Origin: Chlorella sorokiniana
Lineage: Eukaryota; Chlorophyta; Trebouxiophyceae; Chlorellales; Chlorellaceae
Length of the DNA stretch: 64,000 nt
Reading direction: 5' to 3'
Assembly (NCBI GenBank): GCA_025917655.1
Contig: CP084611.1
Span: 1,240,001-1,304,000 of the forward strand
The notes under the pieces: model-generated
Seen by the model: only the letters and a program-made list of their open reading frames with translations
What the model was told of the DNA's origin: nothing
Databases searched by the model: none
Translations under genes and position numbers: made by a program
Shown: positions 719 through 9,400 of the stretch, piece after piece
Layout: each line of letters starts with the position of its first letter
How positions within the stretch are numbered: the first letter of the stretch is position 1

Positions 719-3700
719 ATGACAGGCTGCCCGTTCGGAGGACGTTCTAGCATCACTGGAGAGGGGCCAATCAGCCCCAGGCGCGCGCTGCAGGAGGTGA
801 GCCGGAGCCTTGTGGGCGTGGCGCAGAAGCAGCGCATCGGCGCTTCCTCGTCAGCGGTGACCAGAGCTCGTTGCACGGGGCTCCATCCATCTCATTGCTC
901 CGTTGGCTTTCCTGCAGGCCAATCAAGCCGAGGCTGCGGCGATTTGTCCCAAGCAGCTCCTGCGCCTCCCCTCCGGGCGCGCACGCGTCCGCCTGCTATG
1001 TGAGCGTGCTGCTGCCTTGCCCACTGCTCCGGCTGGTGTGCATGCATACGTCTGCATGAACGCGTGGTGACCCTGCTGCAGACGAGGAGTATGTGCACCT
1101 GGACTTGCTGCGGAGCGTGTGGGAGCGCCCAGCCACCGAGCGGCCGGTGCTGGAGCCGCTGTTTGCCGCCGGCTTCCACGGCATTGAGCTCGCCCTCATC
1201 CTGCTGGCCCAGTTTGTGAGCGACGGGCGCAGGTGTGGCAGGTCCTGGTGCCATGTTCACGCCAGTGTCCGGCAACTTGCACGCTAAGCACACATTCTGG
1301 GCATGCCCAGCCGCAGCCCGTCCTGACCTACCCGCCCTCTTACAGGTATGTGGCCAAGCGCCCACGTGTTGAGCTTGTGGCCGAGGACATCGCCACCCAG
1401 GTGGGAAGAGCCGGCTTCTGGCTGTTCGCCTGCATGCCGCACGTGGGCAGTGTGGCACTGCGAGTCAGAGGCGCAATCCTGCTGGATTACACGGCACTCC
1501 TCCTGGCCGCAGCATCTGGAGGCGCGGCTGCATGCTTACCTCGCACCCACGGGCGCGCTCCCTCTGCTCCTGTGCAGTGCCAGCTGCTGACCGACGTAGT
1601 TGATGCTGAGCTGGAGGAGGAGCTGCAGGGCGGCTGCCATGCGTCCCGCCTCTCCCTCACCCAGCCCTTCCCCTTTGAGGGCTGCCCCCCACCAAGGCGG
1701 AGCCGTGCCACTCGCCGGGCCTGCAGCGCCTCACCGACGCCATCACCGCCAACCTGGGCGCCATGAGCGAGGCGGAGCGCAACTCGCTCGTCAAGGTGGG
1801 GCGGCTGCTGCCGTCGCTGGGTGATGCTGGCTGCAGGCCAGGGTGCACCGGCGGTCGGGCCTGCCGACTGGGCTGGGCTGCCTGTGGCCTGCAGCTGATC
1901 CCCCCCTGCGCTCTGCTCTGCTCCCTGCAGCTGGTGCTCAACATCACCGCAGCCTTCGCCTCCTTCCAGCGCTGGACTGTGGGGCTGGGCATCGAGGGCC
2001 AGCTCAACGGTCTGCGCGCCGCCGTGGGTCTGTCGCCTGTGCCGGTGAGCGGTCGGCCCAGATGACTGCTGCTTTCCTTCCCATCGATGCAGCCTCTTTC
2101 CAGCGGCGCCAATTCACACGCCGCCCCCACCACCACCACACCCACCACACACACACCCCACCCCCAAACACATGCATTCGCTTCCTCCGCAGGTGTGCCA
2201 CGTCCTCAACCTCGACTATGACTCGCTCTGCCAGCCCTGGCGCTGCGAGCAGACGCTGACCTGCGAGAAGTACACCCACGGTGGGCCCCGCTGGACGCAA
2301 AAAGAGAGGGGCAGCGTCGGCAGGGGCTCCACCTGAGGAAAGAGTGCACTGCCAGCTGTTATGGGCAGCCCGGCCGACTGGGGCAACTGCCTCCGTGGGG
2401 CCCCTCGTTCTGATGCTCCTGCACCATGCCCCGCCTGCGCAGCCGAGGACTTTTTCTTCAGGACAATCCACCTGGGTACAGACTGCTGGGCGTTTGTGGC
2501 GCTCTCACGCATGGAGTCAGCCCGGGCTGCGGCGCAGGCGGGCGACTGGCATGCGGCGGCTGCTCGCGCGACGCAGGTGGGCGCCTCCCTCCCGCTGCAC
2601 CCACATTTTGGTTGCCAGAGAACCGTCGCATGTCAGGGCCTGCTTTGCAAGGTTTTGCACCTGTCGGTGCTTACTGCCACCGCTGGCCGCAGTCGCTGCC
2701 ACGTGCACCACCCGGCCACTGCGCTTCGCTGGCTCAGCAGCAGCCCGCCTCCCCCACCCTCCCCCACCCCTCCCTACCCACTCGGCCCCCCCCCCCCCAA
2801 ATGAAAAACAATCGGCAGGCCTCCCGCATCCTGGACTACCTGGGCTCCCACGTGATGCTGCTGACCTCCATGAACCTGCGGGACTACCTGCACCTCAAAG
2901 TGGAGCTGGAGGGCACCAGCGGGGAGGGCTCCGCCCTCGTCAAGAGCTTCAGGCCCGCGGTGCGCAGCCTGCTGCAGCCGCTGGCCGCCGCGCTGCTGGG
3001 CTGCGACGGCGCAGCAGCGGCGGAGGCCGCCGACGCAGCCTGCCGGGCGGCCAGCCAGCAGCAGCGTGGCTCTGCGAGCGACAGCGACTGCGAGGAGGAG
3101 GAGGAGGAGGGGGCAGTGGGGAAGAGGTGGCGGGCCCGGCCCAGGACCTGCACACCCGCCTGATGGCCATCTATGAATTCCCGACAAGCAGCCAGGTGAG
3201 GCGCCGCAAAGCCCTGGGGACTGGGAGATTCCACGCTGCCACCGTCCAGCCTGCCCTGGGCTGGACACATCCGCTTGGTAACAGCCTGTTGATCACCAGG
3301 TATTGTACCCGTTCCCCTCGTTGCACTTAGCCGCACCTTCCCCCCACGTTCAACGTCAAGACCACATGCGCCCCTTACCCACCCGCCAGGGCTGTACAAC
3401 TACTGCAAGGCGCTGGAGGGGCTGGAGAGCGGCCTGCTGGGCGGCTTCTACTACCGCCACTACTGCCTGGCGGCCAACGTGATCGGCAGCGCCGCGCGGG
3501 GCACCATGAAGCGCGCCGTGGCGGCGCTCAAGGCCGGTTACGAGACGCCCGTCTTCCCGTTGCTGGACCGTTGCAGGTGTGTGGGTGGACAAGCGCTCTC
3601 CAGGGATCGCTGCGGCCGACCTCGAATGCTTCTTTGCTCTGCCTTGCCTTCCTGTGCCGCGGTTGTTGCGTTCGCCTGGGCTGTATGCGGTGACCAGCCG

Positions 3701-5941
3701 CCTGTGCCACCTGCACACGTGCCTGGAGCTTAGCCCCCTTCACTCCCTGCCTGCTTTTGCAGGGTGATGCTGGGCGTCCGCATCGATGCCGAGGTTGCGC
3801 ACAACAAGGGGCGTATGATGGATGAGATACTTCGGCGCTGCTCTTTCAAGCAGGGAGGGGCTGCCGGGAGCCTGCGCCGCCCGCGCCGCCCGCGCCCCTG
3901 GGGGCCTGCCCGGTCGGCCGCGCCTCAGCCTCCCCCTGGCACGACCCCCAACGCCGAGGACGGCTTCGAGGTCGCTCGGCGGCGGCTGTACAGCTGGGAG
4001 GGCGTACCGCATGCTTTCCGGCAGGAGGTGACGGCTGAGCTGGCGAGGCAGGCTGAGCAGCTGGGGTTGGTGCCGGCGCCCGGGGCCGCCTGCCCGCTGG
4101 CCTTCCTAGACCATGCCTGGGGCCAGCTTGCGCCTCTGGCACAGGTGAGGCTCGACCTAGTTTGTGGTGTGAGCTGTGGCGGTGTTTCTTGGTAGCGAAG
4201 CACACAGGAAATTTTGGCCGATCCACCCACCTGGATGCCTCCACACGCTCACACGCCTGCAGTACTGCGCCTGGCGCGAGGCGGCCGCCCTCTTCCAGCT
4301 CGGCAACCCGGCCTGGGACGCCGCCTTTGGGCGCGTGCTGCCCCAGGCGGCGGCTCACGTGCGGACCCTGCTGGGTCTGCCGGCAGGCGCCGACGCTGCC
4401 AACACCCCAGCTGTCCACTTCGGGGCAACAGCCACGAGCTGGTGGCCCGCCTGCTGTCGTCCTTCCTGGAGGCGCGGCGCGGAGGCGACAACGGCGGCGG
4501 CATGCTGTGCACGCTGCGCCCGCTGCGCCTGCTCACCACCGACACCGAGTTCTACTCCTTCACTCGCCAGCTCAACCGCTTCGTGGGTGAGTGCCTGATG
4601 TGCTGCGCATCGCCTCTGGTGCAAGTCCCCGCTTGCCGCTTCCAGCGCCTTGTCTGCGGTTTAGCCCAGAGCCTGTTTGGTGTTTTTATGAAGACTGTTT
4701 TATGAGCATCCTGCAGAGGCGGGCCTGGCCAGGGTGGATGTGGTGCCAGCCGAGCCGACAGACACCTTTGCCGAGCGCTGCGCAGCGGCGGTGGCGCGTG
4801 CTGCCGCCGCGGGACGGCAGTACACTGCCGTGTACGTCTCACAGGTCACCTACCTCTCGCAGCGCTGCCTGCTGCCCAGCATCCCCGACTTTGTGAGCCG
4901 TGTGCGTGCCGCCGCTGCCGACCCCAAGACCGGCGAGGCGGCGGCAGCGCCAGCAGCAGCAGGCACAGCCGGCAGCACCCCAGCCGCCCCCCTGGTCATC
5001 ATCGACGGCTACCACAGCTTCTGCGCGCTGCCCACCCGCCTGGGCGCGGCGGGGCAGTCCTGCTGCTATGTGGGCGGCCTCCTGAAGCACGCCGGCTGCG
5101 GCGCCAACTGCGCCTTCCTGGTCACCCCGCCCCACCTCGCCCCGCGCCCCGTCATCACCGGCTGGCTGGCCGACCCCTCGGTGCTCGCCTCCGGCAGCTC
5201 CGGCATCCAGGTCGGGTCGGAGGTGAGCGGGTGGGGGGGGCACAGGGGCCCGGCTTTCCAGCTGTGCATGCGCGGGGTCGTCCTTTGACGAGCCCAGCAT
5301 GCAGCTAGGCAGCAGGGCTGGTGGATCTGGAAACAGGGCTGACCCCCTCCCTGGCGCCCTGACAGGTCGGCTTCCTGCCTGAGCTGGCGCTGCAGGGCGG
5401 CACCCCCTCCTACCTGCTGCCCCTCCTCACATTCAACCACCTCATGCAGGCGAGCCTGCGCAGCTGTGGGCACCGGCTGCTGCCCTGGCCTGCAACCCGC
5501 TCGCTGCACCACCTCCACAGCAAGGGCGATGCGCCAGCTGGGGCCTCCCTCATGGTCTGCGTGCCTCGCCCTCCTCCTCCCTTGCAGCTCTGGCAGGAAG
5601 CGGGGCCGCAGCCCGTCAACGTGGAGGGGCTGCACGCACATGTCGTGCGCCTGCAGGAGCGCTTCCTGGAGCGGCTGGACGCTGCTGGGCACCCAGCCAT
5701 CAGCACGCGCACCCTGCTGCCGCCGCAGGACACCGCCTGCCGATCACACACCCTGGTCTTTGCCCAGCCAGATGCCCCCGCTGCCAAAGACGTTGTGGAT
5801 GGCCTCGCCAGCAAGGGGGTGGCGGTGGATTGCCGCAAGGCCTTTGTGCGCTTCGGTTTTGGCGCCAACCACAGCGCAGCTGACGTGGACGCCTTGCTGG
5901 AGGCGCTGATCGCGCTGGCACCTTCAGCTCGCAAGGTGTAG
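719..5941 (+). CDS. Tryptophan 2,3-dioxygenase-like / kynureninase-like fusion protein
   Basis: The N-terminal half resembles tryptophan 2,3-dioxygenase (heme-dependent opening of tryptophan to N-formylkynurenine). It has YVHLDLL, the distal-His motif FHGIEL near 1180, LRDYLHLKVELEGTSGEGS near 2876, and FYYRHYCLAANVIG near 3450, whose His aligns with the heme ligand. The C-terminal half resembles the kynureninase/class V aminotransferase fold: SHELVARLL, VYVSQVTYLSQR, IIDGYHSF near 5000, then GGLLKHAG with the PLP lysine near 5080. Exons include 719-796, 918-999, 1082-1232, 1346-1400, 1931-2044, 2193-2280, 2443-2576, 3390-3576, 3763-4144, 4263-4586, 4717-5222, 5366-5449 (GC donor) and 5588-5941. 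The halves join in phase across the 3577-3762 intron. Unspliced, the first half would stop at TAG 3731-3733, about 30 bp before an ATG at 3764, so a dicistronic reading is possible. One-base frame changes occur near 1690, 3100, 3390 and 4424. Family assignment is firm; substrate is inferred. Confidence 0.72.
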
Positions 5942-6420: not shown

Positions 6421-9400
6421 ATGAATAAGGATTTACGACTACCGCCACTACTGTGCACTTGGGGTGCACTTGGGTTGTCTGAGGGCTCGGTTGCCGGGAA
6501 GGCGCCTGTGGGCGCGGTTCCTCCTTCAACTACTGTCGTTTTTCGATTTCTCACACCTGAAATAAAGTGATCGCAGCCTTTCAATCAAAGTCGCGGTTAC
6601 CAGCGGGCGGTCAAACGATGCCGACACAAGCCCCCTGGCGGTCTCCTATGGGAGCCTCTTCCGCTATGCCACGCTGAAAGAACGCGGCGTGATCGCGCTG
6701 GGATGCGTGTCAGCCGCTGCCACAGGTCGGCCGCCCTCAGCGCCCCCAGCCGCCTGCTGAGCTACCTTGATGTGCCGCGCATGACTCGCATGCTCTTGCC
6801 ACCCCGGTCGTGCAGGAGTCATGACCCCTGTGTTTGCTCTCTTCTTTGGCAACCTTTTGAATGCATTCTTCGAGCCCGACTTTGTTTCTCAAGTCAACAA
6901 GTTTGCCCTCATCATCCTGGGGGTGTCTGCAGCCGCCGGGATCTCTGGTGCGTGGTAGCACTGGCCCAGGCAGCCCTGACCCCAAGTCCCTGGGTGCACA
7001 TCATCAGCAGCGGCCAGGTCAACCCCGTGTCTTGTGTGTGACCGCAGGCACTCTGCAGTTCTCCTGCTTGATGTGGGGTGGCTCGCAGCAGGCCAACCGC
7101 GTGCGCTTCCTGTACCTCTCCTCCCTCCTGTCCCAGGCGCGCAGGCTTGCTCATGGTGGTGCTCTGCCGCAGCCTCTGCTGCTCTGCAGGCTGAGGGGCT
7201 GTATACTGCGCCATGCCCATCTTCTTATCTGATCTGCACCCACCCTGCTTCTTTCCGCCACCTGGCAGGACATGGCCTTCTTCGACACCTCGGCCGCCAC
7301 CTCCGACCTGCTGCACGCGCTGCGCGAGGAGGCGCTGGCCTACCAGGAGGCGGTGTCGGACAAGCTGGGCAGCTTCGTGCAGGGCGTTGCCTGCTTCGTG
7401 GGGGCCATGGTGAGGGGTGCCCACGGGTGGGGAGGGCTGGCGGCAACCCTCGTTTGCAACACTCTGTATGCTCTGCATATGCCCTTCACATGCCCTCCTG
7501 GGCTGCACCGCAGATCGTGTCTTTCATCCGCGGTTGGGATCTGAGCCTGGTGAGCGCCATGCATCCACTGCTGCCCGGCTTCTGCTCGCTCTGGCGGCTT
7601 GGCACCAGTGCACACCTCGTCATTGCGCGGGACGCTTGCGCTGCATTCGCAGGTTGTGCTGGCTTCCGTGCCTGCCCTGGTCATCGTGGGCGCCGTGTGC
7701 GGCATCTTCACCGCCCGCCTCCAGGTGTCTAGGCTGCCACGTGATCTGCGTATCCTATGTGCCTGCGTTCGCCCTCGGCGCACCCGGCTGTCTCTCAACT
7801 GCCGATGTGCCCCTGCAGGCCAAGGCCACCAAGGCATACAGCCGTGCGGGCGGCATTGCCCAGGAGGCCGTCTCCAACCTGCGCACCGTGGCCGCCTATG
7901 GCCAGGAGGAGGCTGCGGTGAAGAGCTACGCGTCAGCGCTGACCCCGCCCACCAAGGTGCGGCGGCAGCACGCAGGGACGGCAAGGCGCGCTGCTCGCTA
8001 GCGCCCCAGCTCCCAGGCTGTGACTGCAGCCAGCGCTCCACCTGGCTTGCCGAGGGCCAGCCCCCTGAGCTGCGTTTGTGCATGCCCTCCCCCTTCTGCC
8101 GCCCCCTGCAGCTGGGTGAGCGGCAGGGCCTGCTGGCAGGGTTCACCCTCGGCTCCACCCACCTCGTCTTCTTCGCCGCCTACGCCCTGGCCATCTGGTA
8201 CGGCAGCGGGCGCGTGGCGGACGGCGACATGGACACCGGCAAGGCGAGCAGGGCGTGGGAGAGGGGGTGACTGCCCTCGTCGGCGGGTTGCCCGAGGCCT
8301 GCCAGCAGCTGTCGCCGGCAAGCCTGCTGCACATGCTGCATGTTGCCTGGTGGCCTTGCGGTGCAGGTGTGGAGCATCATCCTGTCCTGCGTCCTGGGCG
8401 GCTTCTCGCTGGGAGGGGTGAGCGGCGGAGGGGCAGCGCCTCTTGACCGACCAAAAGCCTGAGCACGTGCGGGATGTGTGTTTGTGTTGCTGCGCGTGCA
8501 AGCAACAATGTCTCCCCCTTTGCATGCAGGCCATGCCTCACTTGGCAGTGTTCAAGCAGGGCTGTGTGGCGGCGGCGGGCCTCTTTACCGTGATTGAGCG
8601 CACACCCGCCCAAGCCTCCAGCGCAAGCGGCGACGCGGTCGTCGTCACCTTCACCGCCAGCCAGGGAGGGCGGTGGGGCCCAGCAAGGTGGCACCCGCCG
8701 CCAAGTCCAGCCAGGTGGTCTACACGGGGAGGACGGCGAGCTGGTGCCAGCTGGCAAAGCCTGCCGCGGCGATCTGGAGCTGGCCAACATCACCTTTGCC
8801 TACCCCGCCCGTCCAGACCGACCGGTCTTTAAGGGCCTGAACCTGCTGTTCCCTGCAGGCAAGCAGTACAGACAAGGGTGGGGTGGCAGCGTGTGCGTGT
8901 GGGAGGCAATTATTTATGTCTTGCACTTGCGGAAGGTGCAGCCTGCAGACCACGGCATTGTTTCTGCGCTCACCACTGCAACCACCAGCCTGCTTGCCTG
9001 CCTGCTCAGTCGTTCATTCTGGTGCCCTCCAGGCAAGACCACTGCGCTGGTGGGTGAGAGCGGCTCCGGCAAGTCCACCATCATCCAGCTGCTGCTGCGC
9101 CTGTACGACCCCAGCCGCGGCGCGGTGCTGCTGGACGGCCGCGACGTGCGCACCCTGCCCCTCAGATGGCTGCGCGCGCAGGTGGGGCGCTGGATGGCCG
9201 GCGCTGCAGCTCCCCCTTCCCTCTCACAAGGCAGCTTGCAGCAGCTGCTTCTGACCTGGTCCCGCCTAAACTTGCGCACACGCACATAAACTCACCCGCG
9301 CTCACCCCCGCAGTTTGGCCTGGTCAGCCAGAACCCCACCCTGTTTGCCTCCTCCATCTTCGACAACATCTCCCTGGACAGCGGCGCCACCATGGAGCAG

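Follow-up and report, generated by a model that had tools for sequence, protein, structure and literature searches.

Does one algal gene encode both a tryptophan dioxygenase (TDO)-like and a kynureninase-like protein? The question is raised by a locus of Chlorella sorokiniana (assembly GCA_025917655.1) in a 64,000-nucleotide (nt) stretch of contig CP084611.1 (positions 1,240,001 to 1,304,000, forward strand), which is called the window here and to which coordinates refer. The original prediction, made from the letters and their open reading frames (ORFs), was a fusion of the two enzymes. Our reading, to which we give a probability of roughly 0.55, is that a single nuclear gene encodes a bifunctional tryptophan/kynurenine-type enzyme, composed of an HSPRO-like part of the TDO superfamily and a kynureninase-like part dependent on pyridoxal phosphate (PLP). 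The gene model, built by hand from splice sites and frame continuity, is as follows.

719 to 5941, + strand, whole fusion gene, 15 exons
719-796, 918-999, 1082-1232, 1346-1400, 1578-1795, 1931-2044, 2193-2280, 2443-2576, + strand, exons 1-8
2819-3195, 3390-3576, 3763-4144, 4263-4586, 4717-5222, 5366-5449, 5588-5941, + strand, exons 9-15
3577 to 3762, + strand, intron 10, in-frame joint between the halves (GT..TTTTGCAG), with an in-frame TAG if retained
5450 to 5587, + strand, intron 14, GC-AG ends, length a multiple of three and open in frame

The exons total 3,134 nt and the predicted fusion protein has about 1,045 residues. Thirteen of the 14 introns are GT-AG and one is GC-AG; retention of the latter, intron 14, is possible. 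Intron 10 (186 nt, GC 0.63) starts with GTGTGT, ends with TTTTGCAG, has 80% pyrimidine ahead of its acceptor and resembles the remaining introns of the gene. Its splicing gives ..VFPLLDRC-R-VMLGVRIDAEV.., in frame, and the claim that both halves run in one direction with an in-phase intron between them is thus upheld. GC content at third codon positions is similar in the N half (0.872, 522 codons) and the C half (0.856, 526 codons). Because intron 10 joins the halves in frame and their third-position composition is alike, the locus is most simply read as coding for one fused product. A tandem pair, whether the dicistron that had been offered as an alternative or two close neighbours lacking a common mRNA reading frame, is improbable: retention of intron 10 would lead the frame into the TAG at 3731, and MLGVR at 3767 and the next MMDEIL could open a second frame, but the segment is intron-like and joins in frame, and exon 11 contains no methionine from MMDEIL to the onset of family similarity. 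When the spliced protein was searched against its own genome (38.8 Mb in 15 contigs, GC-rich and with many short introns, in keeping with a green alga), with the best candidates only being scored, 18 matches were found at E ≤1, all within the fusion locus.

The reading frame is broken at four points that the original prediction did not mention, in each case with one base apparently missing.

1685 to 1690, + strand, frame break 1, at a run of C
3109 to 3121, + strand, frame break 2, at runs of G
3180 to 3182, + strand, frame break 3, at CCC
4422 to 4425, + strand, frame break 4, at GGGG

Four frame breaks within 3,134 nt of exon sequence would suit a pseudogene, but every one falls at a G/C run and is one base short, conserved motifs follow downstream of the breaks, and HSP70 genes of the same assembly show similar damage. 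In this control, three stretches with HSP70 matches overlapping in two frames (contigs 3, 2 and 10; L104, L105 and L106) hold four one-base breaks at G/C runs, of which three appear to lack a base and one (the first in L104) appears to have an extra base when compared with HSP70 sequence. Having been chosen for their frame change, these stretches show the kind of error and not its rate. Since HSP70 genes carry like breaks at G/C runs, we read the four in the fusion gene as sequencing or assembly errors, and a pseudogene is very improbable. Frameshift-based findings elsewhere in this assembly also need care, given the HSP70 breaks.

The N half contains the following features.

1082 to 1795, + strand, Hs1pro-1_N-like region (PF07231, residues 52-139, E 3.9e-5, 23.9 bits, cut-off 25)
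1174 to 1191, + strand, FHGIEL
2193 to 3576, + strand, Hs1pro-1_C/TDO-like core (PF07014, TIGR03036, alignment to the short-type TDO profile)
2466 to 2489, + strand, IHLGTDCW, with distal-type His
2882 to 2899, + strand, DYLHLK, substrate block
3449 to 3469, + strand, YYRHYCL, with proximal-type His

Pfam Hs1pro-1_C (PF07014) matches residues 229-342 at E 0.0034, below its cut-off of 29.3. Because Hs1pro-1_N and Hs1pro-1_C both match, each below its cut-off, and do so in the order of the plant Hs1pro-1/HSPRO family, the N half looks closer to that family than to bacterial TDO. A relation to TDO is also detected. The NCBIfam TDO model TIGR03036 matches residues 263-346 (E 3.9e-5, 23.2 bits versus an equivalog cut-off of 390.7), and the N half scores 21.6 bits to a profile built from 12 bacterial TDOs of the short type, where none of 2,000 shuffles exceeded 3.3 bits. 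The latter alignment is collinear, with two blocks that score 13.7 and 5.3 bits alone; in it, the distal-His block falls on IHLGTDCW, the substrate block on DYLHLK..TSG and the proximal-His block on YYRHYCLAANVIG. A pool of 44 TDOs gave 9.4 bits versus 6.5 for the best shuffle. The short-type, long-type and pooled profiles were run with filters off and one badly extended ORF (L085) dropped; with default filters and all 45 TDO ORFs in the profile, the N half was not matched.

The heme-site His pair is retained in the algal N half, as are TDO Phe51, the Tyr of DYL and SG. In 18 bacterial TDOs taken from the 45 ORFs (12 short-type, 6 long-type), H55, H240 and Arg117 are invariant; we take the first two to be the heme-site histidines and the third to contact the substrate carboxylate. 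The motifs named in the original prediction (FHGIEL, YYRHYCL and, in the C half, GGLLKHAG) are all present. FHGIEL had been cited as a heme dioxygenase motif; the distal-His motif of TDO is instead IHLGTDCW. Of the claim that the N half is a TDO, the superfamily relation survives, through TIGR03036 and the short-type profile, but with its HSPRO layout this is not a plain TDO.

The Pfam Hs1pro-1_C model, which is independent of the alga, matches 13 of these 18 bacterial TDOs (E up to 10, best 1.4e-5); PF03301, the Pfam TDO family, matches all 18, and Hs1pro-1_N is not among the Pfam matches for any of them. Since Hs1pro-1_C weakly matches bacterial TDOs, HSPRO and TDO seem to share ancestry in part of their core. 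InterPro may already group HSPRO in a TDO/IDO-like superfamily. Plant HSPRO proteins are not known to have a kynureninase-like domain.

The C half contains the following features.

3763 to 5941, + strand, short linker and kynureninase-like PLP domain (KYNU_C, bacterial relatives, 16-member alignment)
4427 to 4441, + strand, NSHEL
5073 to 5096, + strand, GGLLKHAG, with the PLP Lys
5151 to 5165, + strand, TGW
5849 to 5872, + strand, RFGF

The sole Pfam match of the C half is KYNU_C (E 1.6e-4, below cut-off). A tblastn search of plasmids with the C half matched eight records, the best from Persicobacter (5e-20), and an alignment of three sequences, scanned against genome contigs, gave at least 494 relatives. 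The best 80 of these have E-values of 7e-54 to 1e-33, which are relative to candidate stretches only, and their record titles name Polyangiaceae, Chlorobiales, several Proteobacteria, Bacteriovoracaceae and others. Identity of the C half to this bacterial kynureninase-like family is 26-36%.

An alignment of the alga with 15 of 86 bacterial ORFs was made into a 16-member profile. Among solved structures its top match is Pseudomonas kynureninase 1qz9 (9.5e-20), followed by a cysteine C-S lyase (1.8e-7), human kynureninase (3.9e-7) and cysteine desulfurases. Taken singly, 15 of the 16 members match Pfam KYNU_C and 12 match PF00266 (E up to 0.01). K293 and R454, which we take to be the PLP lysine and the C-terminal RFGF arginine, are invariant in all 16, and TGW and RFGF are retained in the alga. 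With its best bacterial relative at 7e-54 and the PLP Lys retained, the C half bears out the prediction of a kynureninase-like enzyme and, by sequence, belongs to the bacterial kynureninase-like family. Relative to the kynureninases of known structure (1qz9, 3e9k), this is a divergent bacterial subfamily, and the algal member is fused.

The same two partners occur side by side in bacteria. The kynureninase-like ORF was recovered at all 80 bacterial loci, and at 42 a TDO-like ORF is present, in agreement with the pairing named for bacteria in the original prediction. This ORF lies upstream in the same orientation at 29 of the 42 and on the other strand at 12, and at one the ORF calls overlap. 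TDO upstream and kynureninase-like gene downstream is the order of the algal fusion. For 25 of the 29 upstream TDOs, the distance to the kynureninase-like ORF ranges from a 67-nt overlap to a 12-nt gap when every ORF is counted from its earliest possible start. Three of five plasmid loci fetched, from the eight records matched, also have a TDO-like ORF (Persicobacter, Streptomyces and Nonomuraea). Some locus contigs are short and related genera recur (Bacteriovoracaceae, Bosea), so that the loci are not independent events. The bacterial pairs, such as those of Persicobacter, Streptomyces goshikiensis and Amorphus, are like the alga in partners and in having TDO first, but consist of separate genes: no single ORF among the loci fetched matched a TDO query as well as a kynureninase-like one. 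By eye, no obvious formamidase was seen at 11 loci, from the first 60 residues of each ORF.

At five loci (L048, L050, L064, L088 and L090) a short-type TDO adjoins the kynureninase-like gene on the opposite strand; of the two TDO types, it was the short one, and not the long, whose profile matched the algal N half. The Streptomyces goshikiensis pair (L003, 4246-6233) lies amid enediyne chromoprotein, benzoate-CoA ligase and aminomutase genes, a neighbourhood that looks like a natural-product cluster.

If the algal gene is expressed as a bifunctional enzyme, the N-terminal part would bind heme and oxidise tryptophan, or a related indole as substrate, with oxygen. The C-terminal part would then bind PLP and catalyse cleavage of the ring-opened product, which may be channelled to it, into an anthranilate-type product and alanine.

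Several results weigh against such an enzyme. Hs1pro-1_N and Hs1pro-1_C are both under their Pfam cut-offs. The check proposed for the fusion, PF03301 and PF00266 in one protein, came out negative for both families in the algal protein at E up to 1, and within the same limit the C half matched no NCBIfam model, kynureninase TIGR01814 included. Against the profile of 32 long-type TDOs, the N half scored 3.3 bits, no better than chance (best shuffle 5.5). In the algal N half, TDO Arg117 is replaced by Lys (in DYLHLK) and Phe116 by Leu, and the GTGGSSG loop is not retained. In the C half, the Tyr before the PLP Lys, found in the other 15 members, is Leu (GGLLKHAG), and the HSHHxWPD and GEG motifs are altered. 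In NCBIfam, a cysteine-desulfurase-family model matched 11 of the 16 members and the kynureninase model only three. A TDO-like ORF is absent from 38 of the 80 bacterial loci and from two of the five plasmid loci (Marinibacterium and Novosphingobium), and no formamidase-family match came from the host genome, in a search that overlooks genes rich in introns. One or other domain may lack activity; replacement of Arg117 by Lys and of Tyr by Leu points to a different substrate or to one activity having been lost.

These replacements also bear on another explanation, in which the dioxygenase-like half performs no catalysis and serves as a sensor or scaffold, a role that plant HSPRO might also have, and the PLP enzyme joined to it has an altered activity. 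Substrate-contact residues are altered in both halves, and HSPRO studies, in the parts available, describe resistance, WRKY interaction and an imperfect leucine-rich-repeat or supposed membrane receptor protein and name no enzyme activity (PMC5731681, PMC6479909). Nevertheless, the protein retains the PLP lysine and both histidines of the heme site, and all 18 of the bacterial neighbours tested match PF03301. We regard a sensor or scaffold as doubtful, if clearly more plausible than a tandem pair or a pseudogene, and prefer the bifunctional enzyme.

The origin of that enzyme had been suggested to lie in a transferred gene pair. Because the N half is HSPRO-like and PF03301 and PF00266 are unmatched, a simple transfer from bacteria is not borne out, and the bacterial loci fetched gave no fused version.

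More broadly, the HSPRO proteins of green plants, which take their name from nematode resistance, may be heme dioxygenases of the TDO superfamily, of which green algae keep a version fused to a kynureninase-like partner; HSPRO would then act in an unrecognised route of tryptophan or indole catabolism, in a lineage said to be without the kynurenine pathway. We put this forward tentatively, as an idea that is rather more likely to fail than to hold. The fusion and the bacterial TDO neighbours nonetheless give HSPRO a testable biochemical hypothesis, namely heme binding and oxidation of tryptophan or indole. The fusion also bears on the claim that Viridiplantae lack the kynurenine pathway. In the portion available of Ternes and Schonknecht 2014, Viridiplantae are given the aspartate pathway and not the kynurenine pathway (PMC4217691), and the available text on the Prasinoderma genome reports both pathways as a stated exception (PMC7455551). 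The same source describes a KYU-HAAO fusion in Prasinoderma coloniale; this is likewise a kynureninase fusion in a green-plant alga, but its partner is 3-hydroxyanthranilate dioxygenase and its host is reported to have the kynurenine pathway. No report tying HSPRO to tryptophan dioxygenase or kynureninase was found in the open-access literature, although mention in the bodies of papers is possible. There, too, no paper was found with HSPRO and Chlorella, and HSPRO with indoleamine occurred only in a Chlamydia trachomatis study.

Searches for further relatives returned little. With the N half, tblastn found no close bacterial relative in plasmids, and a genome scan with the N half alone gave 65 pattern matches, none of them a relative; none of 10 pattern matches in viral contigs was a kynureninase-like relative. 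For a second HSPRO in the host genome, PF07014 gave one chance-level match (0.87) and PF07231 none, in a search where no control gave a signal. An exon-by-exon search of the host genome for the TDO, 3-hydroxyanthranilate dioxygenase and formamidase families found none at E up to 1; such searches (PF07014, PF07231, PF03301) missed the fusion gene itself and reached only 0.03 for NadA, and are therefore no proof of absence. PrnB (PF08933), a first guess, was rejected, having no match in the protein (E up to 1) or in the genome, where again no control gave a signal.

Downstream of the fusion gene in the window, the ORFs at 6861-7232 and 7554-8270 gave no Pfam match at E up to 0.001. The ORF at 8594-9289 (+ strand) matches ABC_tran (5.2e-13) and is probably an ABC transporter gene.

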